The notes below the pieces were generated by a model, which saw only the letters and a list, made by a program, of their open reading frames with translations, was not told where the DNA came from and made no database searches. The position numbers and the translations under genes were made by a program. A stretch of DNA of 64,000 nt, taken from NCBI RefSeq assembly GCF_000003815.2, contig NC_049989.1:23245626-23309625 (forward strand). Reading direction: 5' to 3'. The DNA is from Branchiostoma floridae. Lineage: Eukaryota > Chordata > Leptocardii > Amphioxiformes > Branchiostomatidae. The stretch's first letter is position 1. Every line of letters begins with the position of its first letter. This document shows positions 3,201 to 60,475 of the stretch, piece after piece.

Positions 3201-6200
3201 AACTCACGACACAGCAGCTCGTCCGACGCGTCGTCACAGTCGGGGACTCCATCGCACACTCCGGACGGTGCCACACATGTGCTGCTACCTTCACATCGGA
3301 ACTCCACACTGCTGCATTCTGTACAACATATAGCGTGAGAAGCTCTTTCATGTGATAGGCAAGTGTGAAGAGTACTAAGTGGGCACGCTTTGGTACTTTT
3401 CTGATACCAAGAATGTTCAAACAGTAAGAAAAAAACTATATTATTGATAAAAATGCATCAGTGGTCGGCTACTTGTACATGTTGAAACATATAGGTGCAC
3501 TCTCACTGCACTTGCGTCATGCTGGCGTCACTGCGGGGTTCGTTCACTGCGTCATTGTTTTCAAATTGTTATTTTCTCCAATTTTTTATAATTTAGGTAT
3601 TGCGTTATACGTAAAAGTATGACTTAGAAGACGACAATATACACAAAAAGTTAGAGAATTCGTTCTATATCTCTGAAATTCGTTGAGTATCTTTCGAACT
3701 CCGCAGTGACGCAAGCTTGACGCAAGTGCAGTGAGAGTACACCTTAAGAATGCAGACACAGGATTATAAAGCTATGTTGTGCTGGGTTAAAAACAATTTT
3801 CCTAGTTTTTACGGAACAGAATATCCTTTTTTTTCAGAACAGGAAGCAACAAAAATATCACTAGGTATTAGTGTAATTCTCTGGGGAAATATCAAGACAA
3901 TATTATGTCCAGGTCGAAATGTTTAAAAAAAAGTTCTGCTGCCGTATCAAAACCACACACCAAGGTCTCAAAGTTTACCTTACCCTCCCCTTCCCAACAC
4001 ATACACACACGCATATAATTTTTCATGGAGATATGGAGGTAATAAAGCAACCAGAAAATACATATTAGACAACAAGAGACCAACATGTCACAACACTGTC
4101 TTCTACTTCAATCTATCGTTTCCACGGAAATGTAAGCTGCAAAAGTTTGAAACAATCTTTATGTGTGCATTTACCATCTGATTCCCAAAAAGCGTGGGTT
4201 CTTCATGTGAACAGATGAGGTATTGTAGGGTTGAATTATTTAGACAGGCATGTAAACAACATTTTATTCATACAGCAGAGTGGTATGTGGCAGGCACGAT
4301 GGGACACTTTAACAAGGGTCAGAATCCTGTTATGCCCGTGTCTTTGGCAGGTGCACTTTCCTTCCTCCGCATAGGTGTGCAAGGAGTACCTGACTTCTGT
4401 TGGGAAGGTAAAGGGCGTTCGCATTATTCTCTAGAAGCCCATGGGATGATAACAGAAGAACATCGTGCCATAACCCAGGTTAAGCTAATGGCACAACCGT
4501 GCAATTTGTCCTTAGGTTTTTTTAGAGGCCACGTCAACCTCGTATTTCTGAAAACTTTCATGCTGTACAGGGCAGGTCCCGTACTGGCGCTTCCGGGGTT
4601 GGGGGGGGGGGGGGGGGGCGAATCCGCAGCCCGATGGTACACAAAGTTTTGTATGCACGGTATATTGCTTACCCGGATGTCTAACCTTCATAAGCGTTTG
4701 CAAGGTAAGTTCCACGGCGTGTCTGCGCGCTACAAAATCCGTCGGATTCCCTACGAGTTCGTACGGAGGCGGTACTTACCACTTACCGATCCCTAAAGAT
4801 TGCTCACGTAGACAGCACGTATTTGCACGTACGTCGGGTTGCGCCCTTGGCTTTATAGCCCGATCCCGAACGCCCGTCACCGAACCAAACAGTTTACAAT
4901 GTATCCCACCGCCACCCAAGGAATAATACGCTTATCACAAATTCGTAGCCGAGGGATACTTGCTAGACCAAAAACAGGCAAACAGACAAGGATGAAATAA
5001 CTGTAGTAAGCTACTACTGTGGACTAAACGCTAAGTCTAGAATGTAGCTCATTGGGTTTGACTTCTTTTTCCGAGACAGTGGAAGACAAAGGATCTCACT
5101 TGTTTCTGTAATGTGTGGTAGTTTTCTTTTTCGCCATAAACGTAGAGAGGTCAGGATAGAATTTGGAGGCCTCATTAAATGCTGAAATGGCTCTTTTCTT
5201 TCTTGATCGTAGAAGGGACAGTTTGACATAAAATGTGTTTCGCCCTCTGCCAAATCTAACGTACAACTTCTTTCGCACACATGAATTCGAAACTTCTTAT
5301 CTCTCTTTTTATCCATTTTATGAAGTGTGCAATAATTTTCTAATTTTGCTAATTGCACCAGCACAGTAGATCAATGAGAAGATGAGCTTACCGCAGCCAC
5401 CCTCATCGGACCCGTCGCGACAGTCCTGGACGCCATCACAGCGCTTTGAGTCCGGTATGCAGGGACCCTCGGGTTCACAGAAGAACTTGGGCAGGGGGCA
5501 GTCATCCGCTGTGCAATTTTTCTCATCTGAATCGTCGTGACAATCATTGAAACCGTCACATTGCCAGTCTGGAATGACGTGACTTAGATAGTCTGGTGTT
5601 GTGCACTCCTCCCGGCAATATTCTTCATCCGAACCGTCTTCACAATTATAGACACCATTACACTGCCGGTCCGGAAGGATACAAAATCCATTACTTTTAC
5701 ACTTGAAATTTTCCCTGTTGTAACACTCTCTGCTTGTGCAATCTTCAATCTCATCTGAATCTAACGCGTCCTCACAATTGTCATAACCGTCGCACTGCGC
5801 CTCAGGAGGGACACATACTCCGCTAATTTCGCACCTGAATGCGTCGGGATGCAAACACTCTTTGGTCAAGCAACCCTCCTCATCTGCGCCGTCTTCACAA
5901 TCATCCCTGCCGTCACATTGCGAGAATGGATGAACACATATGCCACTACTTTCACACTTCACATAGTTGCTGTTGAAACACTCTTTGCTTGTGCAATTCT
6001 TCTCATCTGAACCGTCGTCACAATCTTCATCACCGTCACATTGCCACCACGCACGGACACAGATGCCACTGGTTTCACATTTGAAATAATCGGTGTCGAA
6101 GCACTCTTTGGTTGTGCAATTCTTCTCATCTGAACCGTCTTCGCAGTTATCTTTACCGTCACATTGCCACCACGCACGGACACAGATGCCACTGGTTTCA

Positions 6201-8092
6201 CATTTGAAATCATCGGTGTCGACGCACTCTTTGGTTGTGCAATTCTTCTCATCAGAACCGTCGTCACAATCTTCATCACCGTCACATTGATAATCTGCAA
6301 GAACACATACTCCACTATTTTCACACTTGAAATAGTTTGCGTTGATGCACACTTTGCTTGTGCAGTTTTCCTCGTCTGATCCGTCTAAACAGTCATCGAC
6401 ACCGTCACATTGCTTCCTCAGAGATACACATAGACCGTCACCTTTACATTTCAGATAAGCAGAATAACACTCTTTGCTTGTGCAGTTTTCCTCGTCTGAT
6501 CCGTCTAAACAGTCATCGACACCGTTACATTGCTTTCTCAGAGATACACATAGACCGTCACCTTTACATTTCAGATGATCATGATAACACTCTTTACTCG
6601 TGCAATTTTCCTCATCTGAACCGTCTGCGCAATCCCTATCGCCGTCACATTGCTCCCATAGGGGGAAACATGCTGCGTTACCTTCACACTTGAAAGAGTT
6701 GGGGCTGTTACATTCTTGGCAATTCTCCTCATCTGAACCGTCTCCACAGTTATTAACACCGTCACATTGCCACAATGGAGGAACACATGCTCCAGTACCG
6801 TCACACCTGAAAGCTTCAGGCCTGTAACACTCTTTGCTTGTGCAATTGTCCTCATCTGAACCGTCTTCACAATCGTCAACACTGTCGCATTGCCTCCTTA
6901 AAAAGACACACTTGCTACCACTTTCACATTTGAAATGATTTGGCAAAGGGCATACTGTGCAATTTTTCTCATCTGAACCATCTTCACAATCATCAATCCC
7001 GTCACATTGCAACTCTAAAGGGACACATGCGTCATTTCGTTTGCACTGGAACTGTTCTTGGTGGTCACAGGGGCAGTTTTCTTCATCTGAACCGTCTTCA
7101 CAATCATTCCAATCGTTACATTGCCACTCTTGTTGGACACACTTGCTACCAGTTTCACATTTGAAATAATTCGGCAAGGGGCACACTGTACAATTGTCCT
7201 CGTCCAAACCATCTTCACAATCATCAATCCCGTCACATTTCAACACAAGAGGGAGACACATGTCACTTCTTTTGCACTGGAACTCTTCTGGGTGGTCACA
7301 GGCCTTGTTTGCGCAGTTTTCTTCATCTGAACCGTCTGCACAATTTTGAGAGCCGTCACATTGCCACTCTGAATTGACACATACGCCGCTACTTTCACAC
7401 TTGAAATAGTCGGCGTTGTAGCACTCTTTGCTGGTGCAATTGTCCTCATCTGAACCGTCATCACAATCATACAATCCATCACATTGCCACTCCGGAGGGA
7501 CACATGCTCCACTACTTTCACACTTGAAATAGTCGGCGTTGTAACACTCTTTGTTGGTACCGGTGCAATTTTCCTCATCCGACCTGTCTAGACAATTATC
7601 CCATCCGTTACATTGCTCCCATGGAGGGACACACTTGCTACCACTTTCACATTTGAAATAGTTGGGCAAAGGACACACTGTGCAATTTTCTTCATCCGAA
7701 CCGTCGTCACAATAATTCCAACCGTCACATTGCCACTCCGGTCGTACACAGATGCCAGCTGTTTCGCACTTGAGATAGTTGGGTAAGGGGCACTCTTTGG
7801 TCAGGCAATCCTCCTCGTCCGAGCCGTCAACACAGTGAGACATCCCGTCACATACCACAGCGAGAGAGTGGCAGCGCCCGTCACAGCTGAATACACCTGG
7901 CGACAGGCAACCTGGGGCTGTGCAATCTTCATCAGAGAAGTCGGGACACTCGGGAGAACCATCACACCTTTTTGCCAAACCGATGCAGTCATCGGTCGTC
8001 TTGCATGCGAAGGCAGAGGAGGGGCATACCTCGTCTGTGCGGACATGGCCGATGGACAGCAGGCACACAAACAGAAGCAAGCCGGTCGCCAT
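1..8092 (-). CDS. Secreted multi-LDLa / F5/8C (discoidin) protein gene, 7 exons in window, 3' end outside
   Basis: Spliced gene, exons in transcript order: 8092-5392, 3318-3208, 2684-2568, 1822-1706, 1546-1436, 888-713, 251-1. Each junction is GT-AG and the reading frame stays open over about 1194 codons; LDLa exons are all phase 1-1, as expected for shuffled modules. The product starts with a signal peptide, then 26 LDL-receptor class A modules (six Cys and a D-x-S-D-E calcium site in most), then an F5/8 type C domain still open at the window edge. LDLa modules bind ligands in a Ca2+-dependent way; F5/8C domains bind carbohydrate or phospholipid. So it is an extracellular binding or scaffold protein, or the ectodomain of a receptor whose membrane part lies outside. 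I know no orthologue by name. Starts head-to-head with the 9202-21696 receptor gene. Confidence 0.85.
340..690 (+). repeat. Unclassified interspersed repeat ending in ACCTCCA hairpin, copy 1
   Basis: Contains CTGCTGCCGTACTAAGGTCA, CTACCCACATACCGAATA, an ACAC-rich tract, and ends CCTCCATTTTTTCATGGAGG. Same family as 3890-4045, parts of 13405-14340, and 57500-58225. In the intron between F5/8C exons. Confidence 0.75.
713..888 (-). CDS. Exon 6: first part of F5/8 type C (discoidin) domain
   Basis: Encodes a linker and the start of an F5/8C domain: [17 protein letters not shown] followed by a W-x-P…DQWIQ block that matches the family pattern ending QW(L/I)QV. Acceptor TTCCCCACAG, donor ATTCAG/GTACCT; enters in phase 1 and leaves in phase 0, 176 nt. 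Confidence 0.85.
1003..1300 (+). repeat. 300-bp interspersed repeat with CCAATCAG boxes, copy 1
   Basis: Matches 13893-14190: GGGGCCCTGCTATC, TTGTCGCCACAAAC, CCAATCAGAGAATAGGC, GGGAAGCTATCAGCCAAT, CGATCCCCAACGGCTGACTG. No ORF; in an intron of the multi-LDLa gene. Confidence 0.8.
1436..1546 (-). CDS. Exon 5: single LDLa module
   Basis: One LDLa module ([13 protein letters not shown]… then GGEDEDDC), phase 1-1, 111 nt; acceptor CCACCCAG, donor GGAG/GTAGTT. Last LDLa module before the discoidin domain. Confidence 0.85.
1706..1822 (-). CDS. Exon 4: single LDLa module
   Basis: One LDLa module with six Cys and [14 protein letters not shown] at its calcium loop; S in D-x-S-D-E is replaced by Q. 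Phase 1-1, 117 nt; acceptor TTACTTACAG, donor GGAG/GTGTGA (non-canonical beyond GT, so the end is less certain). Confidence 0.8.
2301..2561. mobile_element. Inverted-repeat MITE, TACCCTGGGAGCC type, next to an exon donor
   Basis: Termini TACCCTGGGAGCCAGCCAGG and its inverse. The flanks share AACCCACCG / ACCCACCG (2292-2300 and 2561-2569), an 8-9-bp target-site duplication. The right duplication spans the exon 3 donor of the multi-LDLa gene. No coding capacity. Confidence 0.85.
2568..2684 (-). CDS. Exon 3: single LDLa module
   Basis: One complete LDLa module (…[16 protein letters not shown]…), phase 1-1, 117 nt, acceptor TTTTTTCAG, donor GCG/GTGGGT. The donor lies inside the target-site duplication of a 260-bp inverted-repeat element (2301-2561), so the element begins only a few bases into the intron. 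Confidence 0.85.
3090..3180 (+). mobile_element. LINE ORF fragment in intron 2 of the multi-LDLa gene
   Basis: Reads [20 protein letters not shown] then YLNTSNF, matching 58240-58330 ([19 protein letters not shown]). About 90 bp. Confidence 0.7.
3208..3318 (-). CDS. Exon 2: single LDLa module
   Basis: Encodes one LDLa module with all six Cys and the D-x-x-S-D-E motif. Acceptor TTGTACAG, donor C/GTGAGT, phase 1-1, 111 nt. A LINE fragment (3090-3180) lies just past the donor in the next intron. Confidence 0.85.
3493..3745. mobile_element. MITE, AGGTGCACTCTCACTGC ends, copy 1
   Basis: Inverted termini of more than 45 bp (AGGTGCACTCTCACTGCACT… and its inverse ending GAGAGTACACCT). Same family as 18338-18587 and 34000-34238. 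Target duplication not clear. In intron 1 of the multi-LDLa gene. Confidence 0.88.
3890..4045 (+). repeat. Unclassified interspersed repeat, copy 2 (short)
   Basis: Shares TTATGTCCAGGTCGAAAT-type start, CTGCTGCCGTATCAA and the end TTTTTCATGGAG…GGAGGTAA with 340-690. Confidence 0.65.
5014..5364 (-). mobile_element. LINE C-terminal ORF fragment
   Basis: Encodes [20 protein letters not shown] then [11 protein letters not shown], the Cys/His segment near the end of non-LTR retrotransposon polyproteins; similar to 17190-17480. It overlaps the read-through of exon 1 but lies in intron 1. Confidence 0.7.
5392..8092 (-). CDS. Exon 1: signal peptide plus 22 LDLa modules in one exon
   Basis: Start ATG at 8092-8090 is chosen because it opens a clear signal peptide ([15 protein letters not shown]..., cleavage near residue 19); an in-frame Met 24 codons upstream gives no leader. 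I count 22 modules, each about 36-40 residues, most with six Cys and a DGSDE calcium loop followed by an N-x-T/S sequon. Module 21 lacks two Cys; module 19 has an insertion in the calcium loop. Modules 13/14 and 16/17 are nearly identical, and 7-8 match 9-10, so the array grew by tandem duplication. The exon ends TGC-G before GTAAGC (phase 1), 2701 nt. Other frames of this exon are also open, but those are shadows. Confidence 0.9.
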
Positions 8093-8333
8093 GATCGACT
8101 TTTCTGGGCGAAATGTGGGTAGCCTTCCAAGTGTAGTGGGCCTACCTGCCACCGTAGCGTGCACGACAACAAAATAATTAAGCTCTGTTTTGGTAGACGT
8201 GCACAGTTCTGTGCATACCGTGTTTTACGGAAAGGCGGAGTTAAATCACTACGGGCAAATGGGTACCAACACCGCAGAGCACGTGACAATGGCAGAAACG
8301 TCATGAACATTCACTAGTCTTCTGCTGCTGTCA

Positions 8334-9034: not shown

Positions 9035-9250
9035 TAAATTGTGACGGTGTAGTACGGTACATAGGACAGCTGTGCGACAAGGGTTAGCCGTCTGTCAGCA
9101 AACATACCCACCGGAACATCACCGGTGCTACTGTGGAGTAAGATATAAACTGCGACAGTGTATCACGGTACAACGACTAGTCGTCTCTGTCAGCACTAGC
9201 AATGGGGAACATGTCACTCACCACAACGTCACTAGTGCTACTGTGGGGTC
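9035..9250 (+). repeat. Imperfect duplication of about 95 bp around receptor exon 1
   Basis: GTGACGGTGTAGTACGGTAC…GTCTGTCAGCA…GTGCTACTGTGGAG is echoed by GCGACAGTGTATCACGGTAC…TCTGTCAGCAC…GTGCTACTGTGGGG. The second unit holds the start codon; the first has lost it. Confidence 0.6.
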
Positions 9251-9286
9251 TGTGCCACTGCCTGTCAGGTGCATTCGCGCTAACGG
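9202..9286 (+). CDS. Exon 1: signal peptide of mosaic receptor
   Basis: ATG GGG AAC ATG… encodes a hydrophobic leader ([17 protein letters not shown]), followed by donor CGG/GTACGT in phase 1, which joins exactly to the GT-GGC start of exon 2. A TATA-like TATAAA (about 9144-9149) lies 55 nt upstream. This short exon has no homology call of its own; it rests on the leader, splice phase and position. Confidence 0.65.
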
Positions 9287-12200
9287 GTACGTTATTCTTG
9301 TCACTTTGTACAATAGTGAAATCACATTGAGGATACTACTTCCCGTAATAGGGCCTTTATACGGAAACCCAATTAGCAGGAATCAAGCAGAACCAGCCGG
9401 AATGAAGTATTTGCAAAATTCGTGCCTCATTCGGGTGCGAATTCCAAATGGACGTTATATCCACTTCACACGAGAAGGAATGGGCTGGAATGCCGTCAGA
9501 ATGAAAACTCTTGTCTATTCCTGGGAATTCGTAGTGTATTCTAGACATTCTCATTGCATTCCAGATATTCTTTAGGCCACATTCTGGCATCATTCGAAGT
9601 GGCTCGCCGTCTCAGTTCTCCTTCGAATGAGATAAGAATGTTTCGAATAATGTTTCGAATGCTGTCATACTGCAGTTAGAATGCACTTAGAAACCACTTT
9701 GAATGCCATTCGATATTTTCCACTTCGAATGCACCTCGACAGTTTTCAACATGTCAAAAACGTTCGGGCCAGCCAAAAAGAAAACGGACACAAATAGCTG
9801 GAATCCAGTAAGAATGTCTGGAACACACTACGAATTGCCAGGAAAGAAAATAATTTTCATTTCGACGACATTCCTGCTTATTATTGCTCTCGTGTGAAGG
9901 GGGCTAAGCAGACTTTTTCTAATCCCCTGTCACATCATGTACGATCTTCGGACGTACTTTGCGATCGCTGGAAGGTCGGCCAATTTAAGATCTTCAGAGA
10001 GTCTTGCGAATTTTTCGCCCAAAAACATATGAGCGAGGCTCGTGCGATCGCCAGTGAATAAATCTATGATAATGAACCTCCCATGACCTCTTGCACGCGA
10101 ACAAGGTAACACATAACGTTCCTCACAAAAGGCAAGAGATCAATATTTTTTTTTCTTTTGTTGCGGGTATTATGCCTACTATAATGCAGGACTAGTTCCA
10201 GTCCGGCCTTCCCTGCTAGCATAGAAACGTGCTGTTATATTCGGACTGTAATGTTGGACTGATCCAGACCGTCCTTGTCTACTATCATAAACACGTCCTG
10301 CATTTGGGCTCCGTACCCTAATGAAGGCGTGGCTTCAGCCTGACTAGCATAGAAACACACTGCCTTCTAGTTCCGAAATATAATGTACTGGTTTCATACC
10401 GTCCTTTTTTGCTAGAATATTATTTAGACACATGCTGCTGTGTAGTCCCAGACTGTTATATAGGACTAGCCCAGCGTCGTCCTTTTTCCTGCTAGCATAG
10501 AAACATACTGCTATGTCCGGACTATATTGCTAAGGACAGGCCCCCATGCCTTCCTTTTCCTACTAGCATGGGCACAAGCTGCAATTTTGTACCAGAATAT
10601 ACTGTAGGACTGGCCTAAGGCCGTCGTTTTCTTACCAGCATAGACACATGCTGCTTTGTGGTTTCAGACTCTTACGCAGTAGGATTGTCTCCTGCTAGCC
10701 ATCCTTTTTCTGTCATTATAGACACACGCTGCAATGTGGCCCCATACTAAACTGTAGGATTGTTCCCATGCCTTCCTTTTCCTGCTACCATAGACGCATG
10801 CTGCAATTTGGTCCTAGACTCTACTGCAGGACTGACCCCTGATACTGTTGGCCCAGACCTTCCTCTTCTCTTGCTAACATAGACACGTGATGCTGCGTAT
10901 ACATGTAGTCCCAGACTGTACTAGGGCTAGGCGTAGGTCAACAATTTCCTATCATATTAGCATAGGCACAAGTGAATGATGAGGGTGTTGTTCTGGCATT
11001 TACTGTAACCACCGGGCGCCCTCTTCCTGCTTGATGTCAGTTTAGATATATATAATAGTATATATAATGGTTTACTTCTTCTCACACAACACGGTACAGA
11101 TACTCGTAGCAGTATCATTAGTAAGACCATGAATTGCACTGCCGCGTTACATTTGATAAAAAACAGAAGACAGAAGACAATTATTAAAAATCCGCATTTG
11201 CGAATATTGCACATAGTATTTGCAGATATTGCACACGATTACTAATTGCAATAACAAATTGAGATAAAAAATACATTACTACTGAGTTTGACTTGGAAGG
11301 TAATGAATAGTCCTCTTACAACAGAGCAGTTTTTTTTAGTGAGACTCAACAACAGTACAGGATTCAATATGAAGCATATTGTGTTCCAACAAGAGTAACC
11401 ATTTTTAGAACCCATCCCAATATAAAGGGAATACATATCTGCATAAAATAACGAAAGGCTGTTCCTGGCAGGTGGCTGGGTGGAGACCGACCCGACATGG
11501 GTGACACCGGACGACTGGGAGGGCGGCGACGGGGTCCGACACGTCTCCGGCTATGTCCTGGACAACAACTTAAGAACCGGCTGGCAGCGGGCAGCTGAAG
11601 AGGACAGTTGGGGTCTCACCTTTGACCTGCAGGCCCCCATGACCCTCTCCCGAGTCCACATGTGGTTCTACCACACCCGAGATGTCACAATCTACCGGTC
11701 AGCGTCGCCAGGAGGACGGTTTGAGACTGTGAAAGTGTTTCCTGCTGCAAACCTGCTTCCTGGTGCAGACCCGGAAAATGAAAAAGGAGCCCGCCTGAAT
11801 GAAGTTGATCTGAGCGGGTTCATCTCTACAGGACAGATGTGGCGCCTGCAGTTCGCAGGGTCTACCCCTATCGAGATTATAGAAGTGAAGTTTTTCCAAG
11901 GTAAGTTCTAATTACGTAAATGTGGAATACGAACGTCTTGCCAAGGATTTTCCATGGATCCCTCAGCTTTCAAACCAGCCTCCTTTTCACACTCCAACAT
12001 TTCAAACTCCAACATTTCACAGTTCAATCAAGGAGTTTTTTTTAACCTCCTTGGTTCAATGTAACTAATGGAGATTCCTAATAAACAAACAAACAAACAA
12101 ACAAACTCCCACTGGTTGTTTGCCGTTATGATATCTTTTTTTTTCAATAGATAGTAAAAAAAATGTAGTAAGAAACCAGATGAATAACCAACATTTGGCA

Positions 12201-13355
12201 GGCAACATCTGACACTTTGTCTGTGACACCGTAGCTGCTAATACTACGCCTGTATTACCTTATCTTGTATCCGTCCAGCCTGCTCTGGACTGGAGAGGAC
12301 GGTCTGTACCGACGGAGACTGTGACGTTCACGAGGTGATCTGTGACGGGTTAGTGGACTGTGACGACGGGAGCGATGAGGAGAACTGTGGTAAGGCACTA
12401 TAACAGAACGGATTTCATACCCTGGCAACAAGCAAGCAAGCAACTGGTGTGGCCTGTCCATTGCATTAAGGAATGCAGTTTGGATTTGTTGAAGTAAAAG
12501 AGTAGTGCGTGCATCATTTCAACCCATGTATTATACCCAACGCGCGATGTGTACGTGTAGATTACAATGCAATGGCATTGAGCATTCGCGCCTTGCATTC
12601 GGTAGGTCGTGAGTTCGAGCCGATTCCTACCTAAGACTATAAAAATGATACATGCTGTTTTCTCTGTTTAGCAGTAAGAGTATGGAAGTTGAACACACAC
12701 CACTACCAGTGGACTAGCCCCCTGCTGTACATAGTGATTGCAGAAAGTTGTATGGCCCAAGGGCTACTGAAACGGAGATGGGCGCCGCGCTATGTACCAT
12801 CTGGTGTGGGGATGACTTTGACTTTTTACGTTGACAGCATGTAGATTTTATTCTATCTCGATGAATATAGATGCTGAGATCTGTCCTAACGGGGCCGCCA
12901 TCAACATGACACAGGTGTGTGACGGCAGAGACGACTGTGGAGACGGCACAGACGAGAAGAACTGCTGTGAGTATGGATTCAGAGAACAGACATGGCCCTG
13001 TGTTTTTTCTTTATTGTTATTTCTGTCTTTCCTTGAAATGTGATTTAGCTGCTAATGATTTTTTTACTTGACACAGGCGAGCGACAAGGCAAGATGGTCT
13101 GCGACAATGGACAATGCGTGGATGTGCTGAAAAGATGCAATGATAGTTCCATCCACCTTCCCTGTGGGGAAAACGGGCAGCGCTACTCCAGATGTGACTG
13201 GGTAGAAGATTGTAGTGACGGCAGCGATGAGGCCTGTCGTGAGTACTCTGATAACGTTGTTTGTGTCACAAAACTTATTAAGTACTTGGTCGGCTGTTTC
13301 CGGAGTTATTACAAGTTGTGTAAGGCAGCATAGGTACATTTTTATTTATTGATCT

Positions 13356-13404
<49 letters not shown>

Positions 13405-16400
13405 AAAGCTATCTGCATGCCTAAAATTATGTCAATCCGTCGATCCTTTCTGCAGTTATCCTCTGTGGGATGTCTTGACAAAAACGCCCCTGCAGTTCTA
13501 AAATCAAATGTCAGGGGGCTGAAACTTGCCCCACTTTGTCATGACACTAAAAGCTATCTACCACCCAAATATCAAAACCATATCATGTCCGGGACAAGAG
13601 AAAAATAGAAAAAACTGCCATAGAATGCTTTCATTAATTATGCAAATGCACTCCAATTTTGCATAATCAGTTCATTTTGTACAGCAAGGTCTAAGGTGCC
13701 TACATACCAAAAACCATGCAAATCCGGTGTTCCCTTCCTGAGTTATCGTCTTCAAAAGTTTTTGACAAAAATGCCCCTGCTATTCCAAAACTAGCCGGTA
13801 GGAGGCCCATACTTATGCCATACAGCTTTCATCACACCCTACCAACACACCAAGTATGAAACCAATCCACCCAACCGTTCTTGAGTTATCCATCCTCCTA
13901 ACGCCCGGTCTCCAACGGCATTACCTTATGGGGCCCTGCTATCCCATGCCCTATTAGTGGCTATTATGATTGTCGCCACAAACAAGCTGTCGACCAATCA
14001 GAGAATAGGCCTTTCTTGGGCTTGTTGTTGTCGCAAGCTGTCTCGCAAAGACCCCTGGGAAGCTATCAGCCAATCATGTTACGTATTACCATGGCTTTGT
14101 TTGCTCACCATGCCAACGCCCGATCCCCAACGGCTGACTGCCCATATAAGGGCAAGCTCATTAATATTCATAAGCAAGGCACCCCTAATAACCGAATACT
14201 GTGGCTGAGTTGTCAGGGGTGATATCATAGGCTTTGCCGTGATTGTCAACCCTGAGTGTGAGGGTGGAGTTATCTTGTTGACAGACAAACGCAGGGTAAA
14301 ATATAAGTTAAACTCCATGACATTTCATGGAGGCAAATATGCTCAACAATGCTCATGTACCACCACCCCCCCCCCCCCGCCCCGCCCCAGCTGCTGCTGC
14401 CTGTGATAACGGAGCCCTGTTCCACCCGGCTACTCGCTGTAACGGCAGAGACGACTGTGGGGACAACAGTGATGAGACGAACTGTGGTGAGTTTTCCACA
14501 CACCGTAATTACTGACAACCCCATAAAAATGTGCACAACACTAAATCATTCATTAGGAAGTGTGTTGTGACCAGTACGTACATGTACAACAATGTCAATC
14601 AGAGAATACGATAGATCCACTTTTACGTGGATTAGGATAGAACAGTTTAGAGTACACCGAACGTATATTCTTAACTAGAATGTATATGCTAAGCTAACTA
14701 GAACCACGATACTTTTACAAGTTTTTATTCAATTTTTCGTGACCTATAATTTTCGTGACCTTAAAGGTCTTCATTTATTCATTTATTCATTCATTCATTC
14801 ATTCATTCATTTATTCATTCATTCATTCATTCATTCATTCATTCATTCATTCATTCATTCATTCATTCATTCATTCATTCACACATTCATTCATTCATTC
14901 ATTCATTCAGCGTCAGGACAAAGAACCCAACGTCTACGGTAGTCTAGACCTTCTGTGGCTACCACAAGTCGAACCCACTAACATACACATGTAACGACTA
15001 TAATTACAAAGCTCTGAACTGTCCTTTTTTGTGCATATCTTTCACAACGAACCGTTACATGTCCGCAGACTGCTACTATCTCCACGACAAAGGGACAAGC
15101 TACAGGGGCCCTGCAAATCGGGACGGAACCTGTCAGTTCTGGACATCTCAGTACCCCCACACACATAAACACACCCCAGAGAACTTCCCATCGGCAGGGC
15201 TGGAGCAGAACTACTGCCGGAACCCGGACGGGAAGGACAGGCCGTGGTGCTACACAAACAACCCGCTCATCAGGTGGATGTACTGCGATGATGTCTTCGC
15301 CTGTGACGGTAACTTTTGGTTATCCTCTTCAACGTCAACGAAATTGTACTTGTATTGCTCAATTAAAAAGAAAGCATAATATAAATTGAACGAATTCACG
15401 ACATTCATATAACGTGGTAGACACATTTGAACCTGCACTTAATGTTATTCCTAAAGCTGTCTTGTTGTACCAATGCTATTTTTAGTAATGGGCGCGTACA
15501 TATATCGCAGATAGATAAAGAAGACAGTGTTTCAATTAACATTATTATACAATGTTTGGAAACACGATGTATACGTTCCATTCAAGCGTACCTCTCCCAC
15601 CTGTTCTACATTTACAGCTGTACCTACACAATGCTTTTACACAATGGACAAGGGAAGGAGCTACGCGGGGCACGTGAATAGGTAAAATAAGAATCATTCC
15701 TTATGTCAGTTCAGGACAAGATAGACTGGTGCTATGTGAAGGACTGTCATTCTGATGTAATGATATAGTACTGTTTATCCGTAGCCGAAGCTGGGAGGTT
15801 AATGTTAATTATAGGTATTTTGCAATGGTCAATCTTGACCGCAAGAGAACCGAATTCTGTATGCTGCTATACTTTCCAAGCAGAGGTTAGGCTCCGGCTG
15901 TTGTTTTTTTTAAATATTTTTAGTCGTTTTTATCGGGCTTTGTATTTTGTATTGCAACTTTCTGTTAGTTTCTGACACAGCAAGACACAATACAAAATTA
16001 AAAGTCCGATCAAAACGACAAAAAAAGCCGGAGCCTAACCTCTGCTTGGAGAGTATGCTGCTATTCTACAGGGTAGGAGACCGGGTGTGTCCGAGATGGG
16101 ACTCCCAGTCCCCCCACAGCCATCCCCACACACCACAGGCTCTTTACACGTTTATATACCGTATATCTGTACAGGGTAGGAGACCGGGTGTGTCCGAGAT
16201 GGGACTCCCAGTCCCCCCACAGCCATCCCCACACACCACAGGCTCTTTACACGTTTATATACCGTATATCTGTACAGGGTAGGTGACCGGGTGTGTCCGA
16301 GATGTGACTCCCAGTCCCCCCACAGCCATCCCCACACACCACAGGCTCTTAACACGTTTATATACCGTATATCTGTACAGGGCAGGAGACCCGGTGTGTC

Positions 16401-19400
16401 AGAGATGGGACTCCCAGTCCCCCCACAGCCATCCCCACACACCACAGGCTCTTTACACGTTTATATACCATACCGTATATCTGTACAGGGCAGGAGACCG
16501 GGTGTGTCAGAGATGGGACTCCCAGTCCCCCCACAGCCATCCCCACACACCACAGGCTCTTTACACGTCTATATACCGTATATCTGTACAGGGCAGGAGA
16601 CCGGGTATGTCAGAGATGGGACTCCCAGTCCCCCCACAGCCATCCCCACACACCACAGGCTCTTTATACGTTTATATACCGTATATCTGTACAGGGCAGG
16701 AGACCGGGTGTGTCAGAGATGGGACTCCCAGTCCCCCCACAGCCATCCCCACACACCACAGGCTCTTTACACGTTTATATACCGTATATCTGTACAGGGC
16801 AGGAGACCGGGTGTGTCAGAGATGAGACTCCCAGTCCCCCCACAGCCATCCCCACACACCGCAGGCTCTTTACACGTTTATATACCGTATATCTGTACAG
16901 GGCAGGAGACCGGGCGTGTCAGAGATGGGACTCCCAGTCCCCCCACAGCCATCCCCACACACCACAGGCTCATCCTGATGCAGGCCTGGAGGAGAACTTC
17001 TGTCGTAACCCTGACAACAAGGAGCGGCCCTGGTGCTACACCACGGACCCGACATTGAGGTGGAACTACTGTGACGTCATGGAATGTGCCGGTAAGACTA
17101 CAATGTATTGCTTCATTACTTTGTGACTTGGCTTTCAATCTTATTCAGACGTGGGGAACTTTTGATGCCCGCGTGGTTTTCGATAGAAGCACAAACCGTT
17201 GTGACTTACCCAAAAATTTATTTCGCGACATTATTGTGTGAAAGAACGTGCAAACAATGCACGTCAAACATGGTGGAAGACAAAACACATTTAATGTCAA
17301 ACTGCTCTTTCTACGATCACGAAAGAAAAGAGCTGTTTGATGAGGCCACCAAATTCCGCCCAAACTTCTTTACATTCAATGACAAACAAATAACAATTCT
17401 ATCTATAACATCACAAAACTCACACATAATAGAAATGGCAGGATCTTTCGTCTTCCACTGTCTTCGAAAAAGGAGCCGAACCCAATAATATAATAGCCCA
17501 GGATTTAGAGTTAGCTTTTACTAGTTTTAGACTAGAGTAGACACTTGTGATATTGTTTTTACACAGTTTGAATCTCTCATTTTACCTGCAATTAGCCCGC
17601 GGGCAATAATTTGCAAAAAAATATCATGATTTACTAATTTGTTTAAACCATGTATTCGAGAGGGATAGAGAATGTATTAGAGAATATTTCCTGTGTGTTG
17701 ACCTTTCATCCGTTTTCTACCGTCTCGTACACATCATAGACCCTTTTTTTACTGTCACATTTACATTTACTGTTACACAATTGAGTGCAGCACAGCATCG
17801 ATCAGTAAACCCGATCAACCGACTAGGTTGTGATAAAAAGTACATGTGCCTCTTATCGCATGAATAAGAGTACATTTGACCAGCACAGGGAAGTTGAAAC
17901 AAGTATGTCTACAAAGTACAGCTATTGCACAGGTGGTGGTAAAAAGTACAATAGGTATTGCACAAGGAAAAAAATCTTCGCACATACAAGCCTTTCTCAT
18001 GGACATATACAGGCTATTATGTATAACTACTATACTCCACGATTTCCATTTTTGCCATGGAATATTTATGATACATGTAGATGGTTACAAAACACCAAGT
18101 TATTACCCACTATAGACCCTACATCCCTGGACTTCATCGGTCAGGAGTGCAAGGGAACTTATACCTGTGAAGACAGGCCGGCCAAGCTTTGTGATTGTGA
18201 CCATGACTGTCGCTTTTTCAGCGACTGCTGTGAAGGTTTTGAGTAAGTAATGATGCATGTCTGTCTGTCGAGTAATACTTTTGGGGTTGCCGGACGGTTC
18301 ACGGGCTATTTTTGGTCACTTTCGGGCGTGAGCCTTGAGGTGCACTCTCACTGCTCTTGTGTCAATCTTGTGTCACTGCGGGGTTCATTCACTGCGTCAC
18401 TGTTTTGTTATTTTCTCCGATTTTCTTATATAGATATTGCGTAATACGTAATAGTATGACTTATAAGACGACAAAATACACAAACAGTAAAGAAATTTGT
18501 TCGTTATCCCTGAAATTCGTTGAGTTAGAGTTCGTTCGAGCCCCGCAGTGACGCAAGCTTGACGCAAGTGCAGTGAGAGTGCACCTTTACGTACCCTGGG
18601 AAAACGCAGACTCCTAACGAGGCACGCAAAGTTTACCGATCCCTACAACACGCGCGCACGGGACACCCGCCGCCTAACACCCGCCGGCCCACGAACCAGC
18701 TGGCCCCAACTATCACTTGCGAGCGATAGTTGGGGACCGGCGTAAGTGGGGCCAGCTGGTAGTGGGACGGGTGCATAGAGGCGGGAGGGCGCGTTAGGCA
18801 GTGGATCGGTAACTCTTATTTGCGAAGCTTCTCGAGCTGGTTTCCCAGGGTAACCTTTACGTGGCCCAGTGGGTCACCCGGCGGCTACCGGACATTTTGG
18901 TGCACGACGGGGCCCAGGGTCAACTTTAACTCGGAGCTAAAATCATCCTGGGGCCCGGTAGCAAGTAGACACCAGCAGCGCATCGGGACAAATTTGTGGC
19001 TTCGGGGCCCAACCGGGGCTACACCCCTATGGCCACCGGTGAAAATGTATAGCATGAGTAAGGAATTGTCACTGATGATTCTTACTTCCGGCTGGACATT
19101 CTACTACACCTTCCTGTAGTCTTTTTTCATCAATAGTCATTTAATGCAGTTTCAGAAGACCTGCATTCTAGAAAATTGTTAACCTAATCTAGAATCATGT
19201 GATTCATTGTGACTTCATTACACCCTCCTCAGAGAAGGCGGCTTAGCCCCGCCAGTTCAGCCATCTCCTGACTACTACCATCGAAAGTGGAAGTGTGTGC
19301 CTGGCTTCACCGACTGGCCTTCCTATTGGCTGGTCGCTGACTGCCCTCACCAATGGACGGATGACGTCACAAGGGATCAATGTTTAAAACAAGCAGATAC

Positions 19401-21696
19401 GTTCAGTCCGAGCGACCTTGCTTACAGGATGCCTGTGGAAGAAGATACTAGTAGTCTGTACAAAATCTCTTACAGAAACTTATTCTGTGCTCTTTGCAAT
19501 AATGTAACAACGGCAGAAGTATCCATTTTGGCATCTGATGCTTTGTGTTCTGGACTGCTTAATTCATCTGCAGGCACACCTGTAGATGGACCAGAGTACA
19601 GCAATATTTTCAGTACCCTTGGTGTTAACGACAGCGTGGAGGGTTGCCTTGGTGCAAAAAAAGTTGAATTTCATCTTTCCGATGCGAGACCATGTCTTTC
19701 CCACGAGGCAGATCCTTCAAATGCAAACTGTGATATAACTGCCTGTATGTCTTACAGCTATCCTGTTTTCAGTAGGTATAAGACATACAGGAACTTACAT
19801 TGTGCTCTTTGTGAAGGGCTTTCCCCTGCGGCAACCACACATCTGAGGTGCGGGGCCACTGCTCGTGAGACGAGAAGTCTGCTTGATTGCATTAAATCTG
19901 GTACTTGTCTTTCTTTAATCTCGCTGACTCGTCTGTTCAACTTTGACGCAGACGAGAGTGATGAAAACGGCCGCAGGCAGTGTCCCTCCGACACTGTATA
20001 CGATCCCTTTGTACAGACTTGCCGAGATTTCTCATCAACTCCCAAAAGCCATGGCTCAAACACAACTATCCCCTTGCAAAATTGCAGCGAACCCGCTTTG
20101 ACGTTCACGGCGGAAGAGTTCCGAGTCCTTCCCAATGGTAGTGTCCACCTGTTGAGTTCTAACGTGTCCTGCCCAGCTGAGCAGGTGGCCATTCTGAACA
20201 CAACAGCATCGATCTGCGGGGAGTGCGTACTGCAGCACTTCTCGAACCACACGCAAACAACTGACCCCTGGGACGATGACCAAGGTCGGTTGACCCTGGG
20301 GCTTGTGACAGTGTCTGCCGTAGCCGTGGTCACCTTTTTTGTCCACAATGTCCAGTCTGGCCAGTGGAAAAAAGTCCCAGAAAAGCTGAAGGTTCAAATG
20401 ATGACATGCATGGTCCTTGCTGAAGTCATGTTTGTGTTTCGTTTGCTTGTACCACGTGGACCGGGCTGTGCAGCGTTTGCAATCATTGTGCACTATCTTC
20501 TTCTGACAGGATTCACATCCATGAACGCACTAGCCATGGATCTCTTTCTCACCTTTCGTGACGGTTTAGAAAGAGTGAAACTGTACCAATACCTCTTGTA
20601 TACCTGGCTAGTGCCAGTGCTTGTAGTAGTAGTGACCGTGATTGTGGAATTCGGCAGTTCTGTCAGGGTGGGTTACGGAGAGAACTGTTGGATCGGCGAT
20701 CCGACTGCCAGCCTGGTGGCTTTTGGAGTTCCTGTCCTCTGTGCCCTTTTGGTCAATGCCGTTTTGATCACCCTTGTCTTGCTGGCCATACGGAAATCGT
20801 TTCAGATAGCCAATGCCGCTTTGTCACGCTCAAACAGCAGCAAGGCCTGGGTCTACATCCGTATCTCCTTTATTACGGGGTTCACCTGGCTTCTTGGCTT
20901 CATCTATCCTTACGTCAACAGCCGAGCTTTAGAGTACATCTTCATTGTGCTGAACGCTTCTCAGGGCCTTCTGCTGGCCCTGATGCTGTCAATAACATCG
21001 AAGGTGGTGGAGAAATGGGAGTCTGCGATCAGGGCACGCCTTGGTCTGGCTGTACCTCAGCAGAACAATGGACAAACCACCACCACCACCACCACTACCA
21101 CTGCCGGCAACGGACAGACTGCTACAAGGCGAGTTGAAGCAACGGCAGGTGGAGCCGGCTCTGCTACTGACATACCCATGACAACTTTAGTCGATGTGGA
21201 GGGTAACAGGGCGAGCCATCAGCTGAATGACGTTCAACAGAGCAGTAAACGAGCCGGTACCGAAGGTGAAATCGGCTCAGATGTGGACAACAACTCAGCT
21301 AGAGACATAGCCATGGCAAATTTTGTTGATGTAGAGAAGCAGAGCGCACGCGTTCAGCTAGATGAGCCCCATCAGGACAGTGGAGCAACCGCCACTGCAG
21401 GCAACCGGCAGGCCACCGAAGGTGAAATCGGCTCAGATGTGGACGACAACTCAGCTACAGACGTAGCCATGGCAACTTTTGTTGATGTAGAGGAGAAGAG
21501 CGCACGCGTTCAGCTAGATGAGCCCCATCAGGACAGTGGGACAACCGCCACTAGCACTACAGACAAGCATCAGACCTCTACAGAGCGAACAGGAGAAGGA
21601 ACCGACTCTGCTGTGCCTACAGACATGCACACAAAAGCCGCCGCCGATGTGGAAGACAAGACCCCAGATGGAGATGACAATGAGACCTGTTTCTAG
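9202..21696 (+). CDS. Mosaic family-B 7TM receptor: galactose-binding-like, LDLa x4, kringle x2, somatomedin B, 7TM
   Basis: Eleven exons: 9202-9286, 11472-11900, 12279-12389, 12871-12966, 13077-13238, 14391-14486, 15069-15308, 15618-15681, 16901-17091, 18116-18242, 19233-21696. All junctions are GT-AG and phases match, giving 4065 nt and 1354 aa. Order: signal peptide (1-26), galactose-binding-like domain (29-171), four LDLa or LDLa-like modules (172-326), kringle 1 (327-406), kringle 2 (407-491), somatomedin B (492-553), Cys-rich N-glycosylated ectodomain (556-880), seven TM helices (about 886-1120), cytoplasmic tail to 1354. The TM region has family-B hallmarks (GFTWLLGF in TM6, [10 protein letters not shown] in TM7). 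I see no GPS cleavage motif, so it is methuselah-like rather than a typical cleaved adhesion GPCR. Ligand and coupling unknown. Confidence 0.85.
9463..9901. mobile_element. Foldback element in intron 1 of the receptor gene
   Basis: Arms of about 100 bp pair imperfectly: CTTCACACGAGA at both ends, then GGAATTCGTAGTGTATTC against AATTCGTAGTGTGTTC. A 167-codon open frame across the left arm is incidental. Confidence 0.75.
10170..10985 (+). repeat. Diverged tandem repeat of about 75 bp in intron 1 of the receptor gene
   Basis: About ten units with CTGCTAGCATAGA(A/C)ACA, GTCC(C)AGACTGTA and GGACTG…CC…CCTTCCTTTT. Units differ at many sites, so the array is old. Confidence 0.75.
11472..11900 (+). 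CDS. Exon 2: galactose-binding-like (F5/8C-type) domain
   Basis: 143-codon exon, phase 1-1 (acceptor CCTGGCAG, donor CAAG/GTAAGT). The product, with [21 protein letters not shown], then a beta-rich stretch and a closing [10 protein letters not shown], fits the jelly-roll of discoidin-like domains: 'FDL' after a solvent-exposed W, and an 'I-x-E-V' last strand. Family match is by pattern only. Confidence 0.75.
12279..12389 (+). CDS. Exon 3: LDLa module 1 of mosaic receptor
   Basis: Canonical LDLa ending [12 protein letters not shown]; phase 1-1, 111 nt; acceptor CCGTCCAG, donor GTG/GTAAGG. Confidence 0.85.
12570..12827 (+). mobile_element. tRNA-derived SINE, copy 1
   Basis: Head with a B-box (GAGTTCGAGCC at 12611-12621), then a body shared with 28299-28691 (GGAAGTTGAACACA, CCACTACCAGTGGACTAGCC, CTACTGAAACGGAGATGG). 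In intron 3 of the receptor gene, 43 nt before exon 4. Confidence 0.8.
12871..12966 (+). CDS. Exon 4: short LDLa-like module 2 (four Cys)
   Basis: Encodes [19 protein letters not shown] then [10 protein letters not shown]. The calcium loop is intact, but two of six Cys (the first and third) are missing. Phase 1-1, 96 nt; acceptor GAATATAG, donor T/GTGAGT. Confidence 0.8.
13077..13238 (+). CDS. Exon 5: extended LDLa module 3
   Basis: Encodes [15 protein letters not shown], an insertion of about 20 residues with two extra Cys, then [14 protein letters not shown]. Phase 1-1, 162 nt; acceptor GACACAG, donor C/GTGAGT. The insertion sits between the usual third and fourth Cys. Confidence 0.8.
13356..13404 (+). 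repeat. (TATC)n microsatellite
   Basis: About 11 perfect TATC units directly before the interspersed repeat at 13405. Confidence 0.95.
13405..13870 (+). repeat. Unclassified interspersed repeat, copy 3
   Basis: CTGCAGTTATCCTCTGTGGG, CTTGACAAAAACGCCCCTGC and ACTTGCCCCACTTTGTCATG match 57530-57930 over about 430 bp. In intron 5 of the receptor gene. Confidence 0.8.
13893..14190 (+). repeat. 300-bp interspersed repeat with CCAATCAG boxes, copy 2
   Basis: Second copy, same order of boxes as 1003-1300, in intron 5 of the receptor gene. Confidence 0.8.
14391..14486 (+). CDS. Exon 6: short LDLa-like module 4 (four Cys)
   Basis: Encodes [19 protein letters not shown] then GDNSDETNC, the same four-Cys pattern as exon 4. 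Phase 1-1, 96 nt. The acceptor follows a C-rich tract (14365-14390); donor GTG/GTGAGT. Confidence 0.8.
14768..14910 (+). repeat. (ATTC)n microsatellite
   Basis: Over 30 ATTC units with a few ATTT interruptions, between exons 6 and 7 of the receptor gene. Confidence 0.95.
15069..15308 (+). CDS. Exon 7: complete kringle domain 1
   Basis: A whole kringle in one exon: [33 protein letters not shown] and WMYCDD cover the conserved Cys, YRG, CQ-W and NPD-x4-PWC blocks. Phase 1-1, 240 nt; acceptor GTCCGCAG, donor G/GTAACT. Kringles bind lysine or protein partners in clotting and morphogen proteins. Confidence 0.92.
15618..15681 (+). CDS. Exon 8: N-terminal part of kringle 2
   Basis: A 64-nt exon encoding [18 protein letters not shown], the C-Y-x4-G-x2-Y-x-G start of a kringle. 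Enters in phase 1 and leaves in phase 2 (AATAG/GTAAAA), which fits the single leading G of exon 9. Found by kringle pattern and phase. Confidence 0.8.
15871..16054. mobile_element. MITE, CTCCAAGCAGAGGTTAGGCT ends, copy 1
   Basis: Inverted termini CCAAGCAGAGGTTAGGCTCC and inverse; flanks share TGCTGCTA. It sits directly upstream of the first unit of the 103-bp splice-site array, in intron 8 of the receptor gene. Confidence 0.85.
16071..16970 (+). repeat. 103-bp tandem array duplicating the 3' splice site and start of the kringle-2 exon (9 copies)
   Basis: The acceptor G falls at 16071, 16174, 16277, 16380, 16488, 16591, 16694, 16797 and 16900: period 103, with one 108 (a 5-bp insertion near 16468). 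Each unit holds the 3' end of an intron (TATACCGTATATCTGTACAG) and about 66 nt of kringle coding. Copies 1-3 read CPRW or CPRC, copies 4-9 CQR(W), except copy 8, which has TGA in place of the W codon. 103 is not a multiple of 3, so the frame rotates between copies. Confidence 0.95.
16901..17091 (+). CDS. Exon 9: rest of kringle 2, starting in the last copy of a 103-bp tandem array
   Basis: Begins after GTATATCTGTACAG with [16 protein letters not shown], then [16 protein letters not shown] and WNYCDVMEC, completing kringle 2. Phase 2 to 1, 191 nt, donor G/GTAAGA. The acceptor and the first 66 nt are repeated eight more times upstream (16071-16900); only this last copy continues into the rest of the kringle. 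Confidence 0.88.
17190..17490 (+). mobile_element. LINE C-terminal ORF fragment
   Basis: Encodes [20 protein letters not shown] then [14 protein letters not shown], same family region as 5014-5364. Ends in a stop; not a host exon. In intron 9 of the receptor gene. Confidence 0.72.
18116..18242 (+). CDS. Exon 10: somatomedin B module
   Basis: Encodes [20 protein letters not shown] then [13 protein letters not shown], the Cys-dense somatomedin B pattern; the eighth Cys is supplied by exon 11 (KWKC). Acceptor CCACTATAG, donor GA/GTAAGT; phase 1 to 2, 127 nt. Confidence 0.85.
18338..18587. mobile_element. MITE, AGGTGCACTCTCACTGC ends, copy 2
   Basis: Second copy, 250 bp, in intron 10 of the receptor gene, abutting the MITE at 18592. 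Confidence 0.88.
18592..18852. mobile_element. Inverted-repeat MITE, TACCCTGGG type
   Basis: Ends TACCCTGGGAAA / TTTCCCAGGGTA, 9-bp duplication ACCTTTACG (18583-18591, 18853-18861). The interior holds a GC-rich foldback. It inserted at the right edge of another MITE (18338-18587), in intron 10 of the receptor gene. Confidence 0.82.
19100..19232. other. End of intron 10, no feature
   Basis: Short single-copy-looking stretch before exon 11. Upstream (18862-19100) is GC-rich and may be part of a repeat, but I see no defined ends. Confidence 0.3.
19233..21696 (+). CDS. Exon 11: Cys-rich ectodomain, 7TM domain and cytoplasmic tail
   Basis: An 821-codon terminal exon, acceptor ACCCTCCTCAG, stop TAG. 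Ectodomain: two YRN(L)xCALC motifs and many N-x-S/T sequons. Seven hydrophobic helices follow from about 20307 to 20998, with family-B signatures ([18 protein letters not shown]) and a TM3-ECL2 Cys pair (PGCAAF and ENCWIG). The tail has a run of nine Thr (near 21076), then an internal repeat of about 55 residues ([10 protein letters not shown]…DEPHQDSG) with about 2.5 copies, and ends E-T-C-F, which fits a class I PDZ-ligand pattern. No GPS motif seen before TM1. Confidence 0.92.
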
Positions 21697-32160: not shown

Positions 32161-32197
<37 letters not shown>

Positions 32198-58855: not shown

Positions 58856-59641
58856 ATAATATCGTCAAGGGTTTGGCACCAGAAGGTCCAGAGTTCGAGT
58901 CCCGGTATATCCTGTCACTCACCTGGTTTTCATGCTACTCGTGAAAAAGGCTATAGTCGTTAGATACCTGTTGATAGAGCGTTGTTCACTATCCATTTCA
59001 TTGTAATTGAACAGGCGGCTTTTCAGAACCCGATACATTGTTTCCTGTCTAGTTATTTATCTACCAATCCGGAACAAAGATTATTTAATACAGTACAAGC
59101 CAGTTAATTGCACAACGGATTAACGCACACTTCTGTTAACTGCACGGAATCCCAAGATCCCAAACTGGTGCGGTCTAGCTGTATAACTTCGCATTATTGC
59201 ACCAGTCGGATAATTGCACGAGATTAAGTTGCAAATAGGCCGTGTAATTAAGCGGCTTCTACTGTAATTTAATTAGAACAGAGGACATGTACAAATGCCA
59301 TTTCATAACAGACTTTAGGTTGCATATAACGAAGAGAGAAATGAACTGTATAAGGTTTTGCAGAACCCATTTCCATATTTCATACAGTTAAGTTACTAGC
59401 TATAGGTAGAAAAAAGTCACGCAACTAGACAAACCATCGATCACAAAACATGCATATCTGCTATTTCATTTATCTCCACCATAACAGAAAAGCGAGGAGA
59501 AGTTGAACTTTAATTTTCTAATGATAATTTTATTTTGCATTTATCAATTATGTTTCTTCAATGTATTTTTGTAACCTGTACTTAGCCCCGTGTGGAAAAA
59601 TGTGCAATAAAGGTCTTTGTTCATAAAATAAGATATAGATA

Positions 59642-60475
59642 CTGGTGTGTTACGCCGAAGTGCGGTTATACCGGCTATATGGACACAGATACAGAAGCTG
59701 GTGTGTTACACCGAAGTGCGGTTATACCGGCTATATAGATACAGATACAGAAGCTGGTGTGTTACGCCGAAGGGCGGTTATACCGGCTATATAGATACAG
59801 ATACAGAAGCTGGTGTGTTACGCCGAAGGGCGGTTATACCGGCTATATAGATACAGATACAGAAGCTGATGTGTTATGCCGAAGTGCGGTTATACCGACT
59901 ATATAGATACAGATCTGATACAGAAGCTAGTGTGTTACACCGAAGTGCGGTTATACCGGCTATATGGACACAGATACAGAAGCTGGTGTGTTACGCCGAA
60001 GTGCGGTTATACCGGCTATATGGATACAGATACAGAAGCTGGTGTGTTACGCCGAAGTGCGGTTATACCGGCTATATAGATACAGATACAGAAGCTGATG
60101 TGTTACGCCGAAGTGCGGTTATATACAGATACAGAAGCTGCTGTGTTACACCAACGGGTGGTTATACTGGCTATACAGATGCAGATACAGAAGCTGGTGT
60201 GTTACGCCGAACGGCGGTTATACCGGCTATATAGATACAGATACAGAAGCTGGTGTGTTACACGGAAGGGCGGTTATACCGGCTATATAGATACAGATAC
60301 AGAAGCTGGTGTGTTACGCCGAAGTGCGGTTATACCGGCTATATAGATACAGATACTAAAACTGGTGTGTTACACCAACGGGTGGTTATACTGGCTATAT
60401 AGATACAGATACAGAAGCTGCTGTGTTACACCAACGGGTGGTTATACTGGCTATACAGATGCAGATACAGATTAA
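59642..60475 (+). repeat. 56-bp minisatellite (about 15 copies)
   Basis: Unit CTGGTGTGTTACGCCGAAGT… GGTTATACCGGCTATATAGA… CAGATACAGAAG, period 56. As 56 is not a multiple of 3, several long open frames run through; none is a gene. Confidence 0.92.

Follow-up and report, generated by a model that had tools for sequence, protein, structure and literature searches.

Lancelet receptors that combine kringle and somatomedin B modules with seven transmembrane (7TM) helices have been described before. Nordstrom, Fredriksson and Schioth (2008; PMC2246102) reported Kringle together with Somatomedin B in a ten-gene expansion of Adhesion G protein-coupled receptors (GPCRs) in amphioxus and, in the sections of that paper available to us, also named LDLa and discoidin among the further domains of amphioxus Adhesion receptors. 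In 2016, de Mendoza (PMC4768249) placed a Somatomedin_B-bearing 7TM protein of B. floridae in the Methuselah/Mthl clade; the accessible parts of that report find Somatomedin_B in Mth/Mthl-clade members of B. floridae, S. kowalevskii and N. vectensis, and Methuselah_N confined to the arthropod members. Kringle is also listed among adhesion-receptor domains in an excerpt of PMC12716839. A separate line of work, of which we likewise drew on portions, concerns the amphioxus "mirages" of the Adh3, globin, TnC and PGBD5 genes, which are minisatellite-like duplications of exon-intron boundaries with splice signals in the copies (PMC3087553, PMC3902484).

The gene discussed here lies in a 64,000-nucleotide stretch of the Branchiostoma floridae genome, which we call the window. 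Set beside the ten published genes by description, it is a member of the lancelet kringle/somatomedin B family already reported, as follows from the amphioxus expansion and from the Somatomedin_B homologue of the Methuselah/Mthl clade. The first-pass annotation knew of no named 7TM receptor with this order of modules, a statement that is wrong in substance given the Kringle and Somatomedin B expansion in PMC2246102, as far as the available text goes and with the comparison made by text, not by exact module order. Its gene model held: 9202-21696 on the forward strand resolves into 11 exons separated by 10 GT-AG introns of matched phase and encodes 1354 aa with a single terminal stop, so that both coordinates and length were correct (Table 1). 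In the predicted frame, exons 1-10 are free of stops and exon 11 holds only the terminal one, with 43 and 42 stops in the two alternative frames of that exon. With exon 11 and the neighbouring LDLa exon as training set, codon scoring placed the predicted frame on top in 9 of the 10 other exons, a different frame being ahead by 0.01 in exon 1. A scan for bacterial promoters and terminators, of a type that is not apt for such DNA, returned approximately chance levels.

Table 1. Features of the receptor gene, in coordinates of the window.
Feature	Position	Strand	Evidence or remark
Exon 1: ATG and putative signal peptide (by eye)	9202..9286	+	also in paralog L010/L039
Exon 2: F5/8C (galactose-binding-like) module, Pfam match under cut-off	11472..11900	+	23 genome matches, own included
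Exon 3: LDLa 1, six Cys	12279..12389	+	splice model, Pfam
Exon 4: LDLa 2, four Cys	12871..12966	+	splice model, Pfam
Exon 5: LDLa 3 with insertion	13077..13238	+	splice model, Pfam
Exon 6: LDLa 4, four Cys	14391..14486	+	splice model, Pfam
Exon 7: kringle 1, single exon	15069..15308	+	splice model, Pfam
Exon 8: kringle 2, first part	15618..15681	+	splice model
103-bp minisatellite ("mirage") repeating the kringle-2 3' splice site; 9 copies, true one counted	16067..16971	+	paralogs share array
Exon 9: kringle 2, remainder	16901..17091	+	splice model, Pfam
Exon 10: somatomedin B, seven Cys, slightly under Pfam cut-off	18116..18242	+	Pfam
Exon 11: Cys-rich membrane-proximal region, class-B 7TM, cytoplasmic tail, stop	19233..21696	+	splice model, Pfam, profile
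156-bp tandem repeat in coding tail, 1.9 copies, 156 = 3 x 52	21259..21552	+	

Each module had been called clear by its Cys pattern, which is too strong. The Pfam run on the 1354-aa protein places two kringles (1.5e-45), 7tm_2 (4.3e-15) and Ldl_recept_a (1.9e-9, in 3 stretches) above the cut-off; neither somatomedin B, for which the whole-protein search gave no match, nor F5/8C reaches it. When the LDLa piece was scanned separately, 4 LDLa stretches were recovered, and, read from the sequence, LDLa 2 and LDLa 4 carry four Cys each instead of six. The somatomedin B exon, scanned by itself, has seven of the eight Cys and scores 20.8-21.4 bits against a Pfam cut-off of 23.1; the module call is supported by the paralogs, as 4 of the 5 paralogous somatomedin B exons scanned exceed that cut-off (26.9-38.2 bits). 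For exon 2, F5_F8_type_C (0.0043) is sub-threshold and ranks after an equally sub-threshold SPDY/DUF317 match (0.0021), and an F5/8C-like exon recurs upstream of paralogs. As regards the coding tail, tandem repeats 3' of the 7TM region also occur at loci L011, L017, L022, L024, L025 and L036, with periods of 66-165 of which several are multiples of 3.

A search of 513,431,437 genomic bases with exon 11 gave 44 matches at E <= 1e-5, the gene itself included, and from this list 25 loci were chosen for the 7TM exon. The nearest paralog (L010) is a divergently oriented copy on the same contig, at a distance of approximately 76 kb.

The first-pass annotation was silent on the array that repeats the 3' splice site of the kringle-2 exon. 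Of the 103 bp in its unit, 71 nt are exonic and 32 nt intronic, so that the tandem copies run across an exon-intron boundary, as in a mirage. In the genome, each of the 111 unit matches precedes a family 7TM exon by no more than 9 kb and shares its strand; 20 of the 25 loci, on 8 contigs, contain one complete unit or more, and several arrays run past the ends of the stretches compared. What is new is that many copies of a family, across the genome, have one short splice-site repeat in common; among the titles and abstracts found in the mirage, kringle-receptor and Mth-receptor literature, there is none on a mirage common to paralogs. The window holds other arrays as well. Two on the reverse strand (30244-31089 and 32190-32572) are mirage-like, with periods of approximately 127 and 148 and with units in which an exon-like stretch ends in a GT resembling a donor, which together with the kringle array would make three in 64 kb, and a 56/112-bp tandem array at 59631-60471 has approximately 15 copies of the 56-bp unit.

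An important question is what keeps this repeat alike at so many loci. We compared 55 array-internal units from 17 genes, leaving out the terminal copies because their upstream bases lie outside the array (74 units and 19 genes with them); five of the 22 kringle-2 genes (L013, L018, L020, L023 and L024) have no internal unit in the stretches compared. The intronic 32 nt are as similar between genes (0.925, 1398 pairs) as within them (0.926, 87 pairs), which suggests homogenisation between loci, and for the exonic part of the same units the values are 0.916 between and 0.926 within genes. When units of the present gene and L010 are set against those of the divergent L025, L028, L030 and L032, the intronic part stands at 0.950 and the exonic part at 0.896. 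We consider it probable, on balance, that exchange between loci has kept the mirage alike across paralogs.

The strongest alternative, which we regard as possible but unlikely, is that no exchange between loci occurs: the intronic segment would be constrained as branch point and acceptor, and the decoy copies would be refreshed from the true copy of their own gene. Within-array turnover is indeed known for mirages, according to the part of PMC3087553 available, and several module exons are low in synonymous divergence while the adjoining intron ends differ, so that constraint may act on synonymous sites. Against this, the decoys are as alike between genes (0.928) as within them (0.922), 39 of 53 units (6 ties) find their closest counterpart in a different gene, and an identical 103-mer is found in L010, L025 and L028. 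The acceptor regions point the same way: over the 32 nt that lead into the 3' splice site of kringle 2, similarity has a mean of 0.83 and a median of 0.94 (19 of 20 rows), whereas the kringle-1 control stays at 0.66 for both (20 of 20 rows) and the somatomedin B control at 0.46 and 0.44 (10 of 18 rows), rows without a terminal AG being left out and exon 11, with 2 of 22 rows, unused. At L020, where the kringle-2 exon stands without an array, the upstream sequence is unrelated. Downstream of the exon, overall similarity in the initial 60 nt of the following intron barely exceeds that of shuffled sequence (0.64 versus 0.59, 17 genes), although by eye L011, L013, L014, L016 and L026 resemble one another in this stretch.

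We had also considered conversion centred on the mirage as an explanation for the low synonymous divergence of kringle 2, and dropped it since kringle 1 and other module exons are low as well. Over all pairs, synonymous divergence is 0.103 in the mirage part of the kringle-2 exon and 0.213 in the rest of that exon, 0.320 in the first half of kringle 1 and 0.149 in its second half, where there is no array, 0.671 in somatomedin B and 0.458 in exon 11. Within kringle 2, codon heterozygosity just outside the repeat (0.052, codons 23-42) is no higher than inside it (0.068, codons 1-22). Relative to L010, pS is 0.03-0.11 for exons 3, 5, 6, 7 and 9 (LDLa 3, 0.03; LDLa 4, 0.05; LDLa 1, 0.09) and 0.23-0.47 for exons 1, 2, 4, 8, 10 and 11, the short exons of either set offering few sites, and the intron ends flanking the low-divergence exons differ between the two genes. 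For this gene pair, dN/dS comes to 0.43 over the whole gene and 0.11-0.58 for individual exons; these are point estimates, and the short exons offer few synonymous sites. Because the low values extend to other module exons, only the intronic part of the unit argues for exchange; the low synonymous divergence of the module exons may reflect either conversion limited to exons or constraint on synonymous sites.

The exon whose 3' splice site the mirage repeats encodes the remainder of kringle 2, and the kringle homology is strong (2.7e-110 to a plasminogen chain). In the alignment rows read, a Lys occupies the anionic site of kringle 2 in all 22 genes and of kringle 1 in all 20, with the first Asp also lost from kringle 1 of L032, so that in both kringles the acidic pair of a lysine-binding site is broken by Lys at its second position. 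In plasminogen, kringle 3 does not bind lysine since a lysine replaces an acidic residue of the anionic centre (PMC10110952, in the part available). By analogy, the lysine-binding pocket should be disabled in both kringles of the receptor, and protein surfaces rather than lysines would be the expected targets. The wider kringle repertoire of the genome is very large: 528 candidates were seen at first look, and all 150 that were scored pass the Pfam cut-off.

Variation in kringle 2 is concentrated. Of its 62 columns, the top three in variability are 50, 51 and 52, with entropies of 2.03-2.38 against a mean of 0.31, and 33 are invariant, while kringle 1 has a higher overall variability (mean 0.43) with its variable columns dispersed. 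We take columns 50-52 to directly precede the arginine of the lysine-binding region in plasminogen numbering, and their place beside this arginine leads us to infer that a contact loop has diversified while the scaffold stayed fixed; judging from the alignment, the family has probably diversified what kringle 2 recognises. Tentatively, and with rather less than even confidence, we propose that the kringle-2 mirage constitutes one sequence pool over at least 17 receptor genes on several contigs, in which copies exchanged between paralogs carry part of the kringle-2 exon while the ligand-side loop outside the repeat varies most. If this were true, the pooled mirage would be a repeat-assisted way to keep a recognition scaffold constant while the contact loop diversifies.

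As regards the class of the receptor, anatomy gives good support to a large binding ectodomain on a class-B receptor. A profile built from 20 exon-11 proteins and compared with the PDB is led by the 7TM domains of adhesion receptors (ADGRL2/L3, 1.3e-19 and 1.4e-19), CRF and CGRP receptors being weakly matched. An adhesion-type class-B 7TM domain and a long multi-domain N-terminus are thus both present, and Kringle, Somatomedin B and class-B 7TM stand together in one lancelet gene, its own somatomedin B being just sub-threshold. The designation of adhesion GPCR would nevertheless fail, by sequence, for want of a GAIN domain with GPS, and a Methuselah_N ectodomain, as in arthropod Mth members, is likewise absent.

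It could be argued that the protein is a true adhesion GPCR whose GAIN/GPS region has diverged beyond recognition, as would suit its 7TM sequence, nearest to those of adhesion receptors, and the filing of the amphioxus expansion under Adhesion in the accessible text of PMC2246102. We consider this rather improbable, because none of the 20 exon-11 proteins matches GPS, GAIN, hormone-receptor or Methuselah_N models (L026 and L027 being partial), and the exon-11 profile found no GAIN/GPS region in the PDB, its matches beginning at profile position 326 or later except for one zinc finger (E 1.9). Adhesion-type receptors carry a cleavage motif of the form HL(S/T), and none of this type was seen by eye before TM1 in the exon-11 alignment. 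A single-sequence AlphaFold2 model of exon 11 had a mean pLDDT of 41, too poor to weigh for or against GAIN. The reading that we prefer is a class-B receptor with an adhesion-like 7TM domain and a Cys-rich membrane-proximal region in which no GPS/GAIN is recognisable by sequence.

Another question is whether the upstream decoy acceptors of the array are used to produce alternative or soluble ectodomains, which seems very unlikely to us. All 9 copies preserve the TACAG acceptor context, and one of the seven upstream acceptors tested (all but that of the first copy), at 16592, keeps the frame to the end and would yield 1457 aa. Nevertheless, the other six lead to truncation, the period of 103 is not a multiple of 3, and splicing is reported to proceed undisturbed at other mirages in the portions of PMC3087553 and PMC3902484 available.

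Judged from sequence comparison, 9202-21696 is probably a single gene. The nearest paralog has 11 of 11 exons in the same order. An AG acceptor is seen for each of exons 2-11 and a GT donor for each of exons 1-9 (the exon-10 alignment stops before the exon end), and dN/dS between the two genes is below 1; this is also the one paralog with which the LDLa exons were compared. Furthermore, at least 19 of the 25 loci show F5/8C, kringle 1, kringle 2 and 7TM colinear on one strand within 25 kb, with the kringle search scoring 150 of 606 candidates and with a partial F5/8C match at two of the 19 (L017 and L026); the six loci that are not colinear may be incomplete, or their kringles may lie among the candidates beyond those 150. 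That a secreted LDLa/kringle protein and an adjacent somatomedin B 7TM receptor were misjoined is hardly credible, since, even if introns 9 and 10, at approximately 1 kb each, leave room to conceal gene ends, both the exon order of the nearest paralog and the colinearity at these loci, on several contigs, disfavour a false join, and no signal peptide is evident by eye in the frame upstream of exon 10. The first-pass reading of one receptor gene thus gains support for its module order from the paralogs, while the kind of receptor had already been described.

Next to the receptor, on the reverse strand, a divergent neighbour at 5318-8224 has an open frame in which 22 LDLa stretches accompany a putative signal peptide, and an open frame at 2233-2748 (reverse strand) contains another LDLa match. 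LDLa matches at L039:8108-8470 adjoin exon 1 of the L010 receptor on the opposite strand, which suggests that the receptor was duplicated together with an LDLa gene, the two forming a divergent pair.

Taken as a whole, we hold with considerable confidence that this is a single lancelet gene for a class-B 7TM receptor of the amphioxus kringle/somatomedin B expansion, working as follows. The LDLa modules, in which calcium-site residues can be recognised by eye, would form a protein-binding ectodomain together with the kringles, whose lysine pocket, disabled by the anionic-site Lys, would leave them to bind protein surfaces. As the variation of kringle 2 lies mainly in the three-residue loop beside the pocket, the family would probably diversify recognition around one fixed scaffold. 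Binding at the ectodomain would then be conveyed through the Cys-rich stalk to the 7TM domain and to G proteins, presumably without adhesion-type self-cleavage, and the splice-site mirage would be dispensable for the protein. The existence of a lancelet family that places protease-type modules (kringles) on a signalling receptor is in this way confirmed, and the family enlarged. If the mirage result holds, minisatellites at exon boundaries can evolve in concert between paralogs that are far apart, which would bear on the persistence of mirages, on intron gain and on the likeness of module exons across a receptor family. The receptor is of a known kind with unusual biology, and the shared mirage and the hypervariable kringle-2 loop are the parts that most deserve attention.

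Compared with plasminogen, the kringles are strongly homologous to kringles 1-5 and match the non-binding kringle 3 in the Lys of the anionic site, whereas the whole protein gives no Pfam match to a protease domain. With the amphioxus expansion of PMC2246102, as described in the text available, the gene shares Kringle and somatomedin B N-terminal to a class-B 7TM domain, and LDLa and discoidin are found among amphioxus Adhesion receptors; in contrast to the ten genes given there, we count 25 loci with the 7TM exon, at least 19 of them with colinear modules. The Methuselah/Mthl clade is similar in its class-B 7TM domain and, in some members, in Somatomedin_B, but the present family has no Methuselah_N match, and the accessible parts of PMC4768249 do not mention kringles in that clade. 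Finally, our array resembles the mirages of Adh3, globins, TnC and PGBD5 in being a boundary-spanning tandem duplication with splice signals, and differs from them in that its intronic part shows no excess of similarity within genes (17 genes) and in that, while those mirages are described gene by gene in the portions of the literature available, here one and the same unit recurs on 8 contigs, at 20 of the 25 loci of the family.
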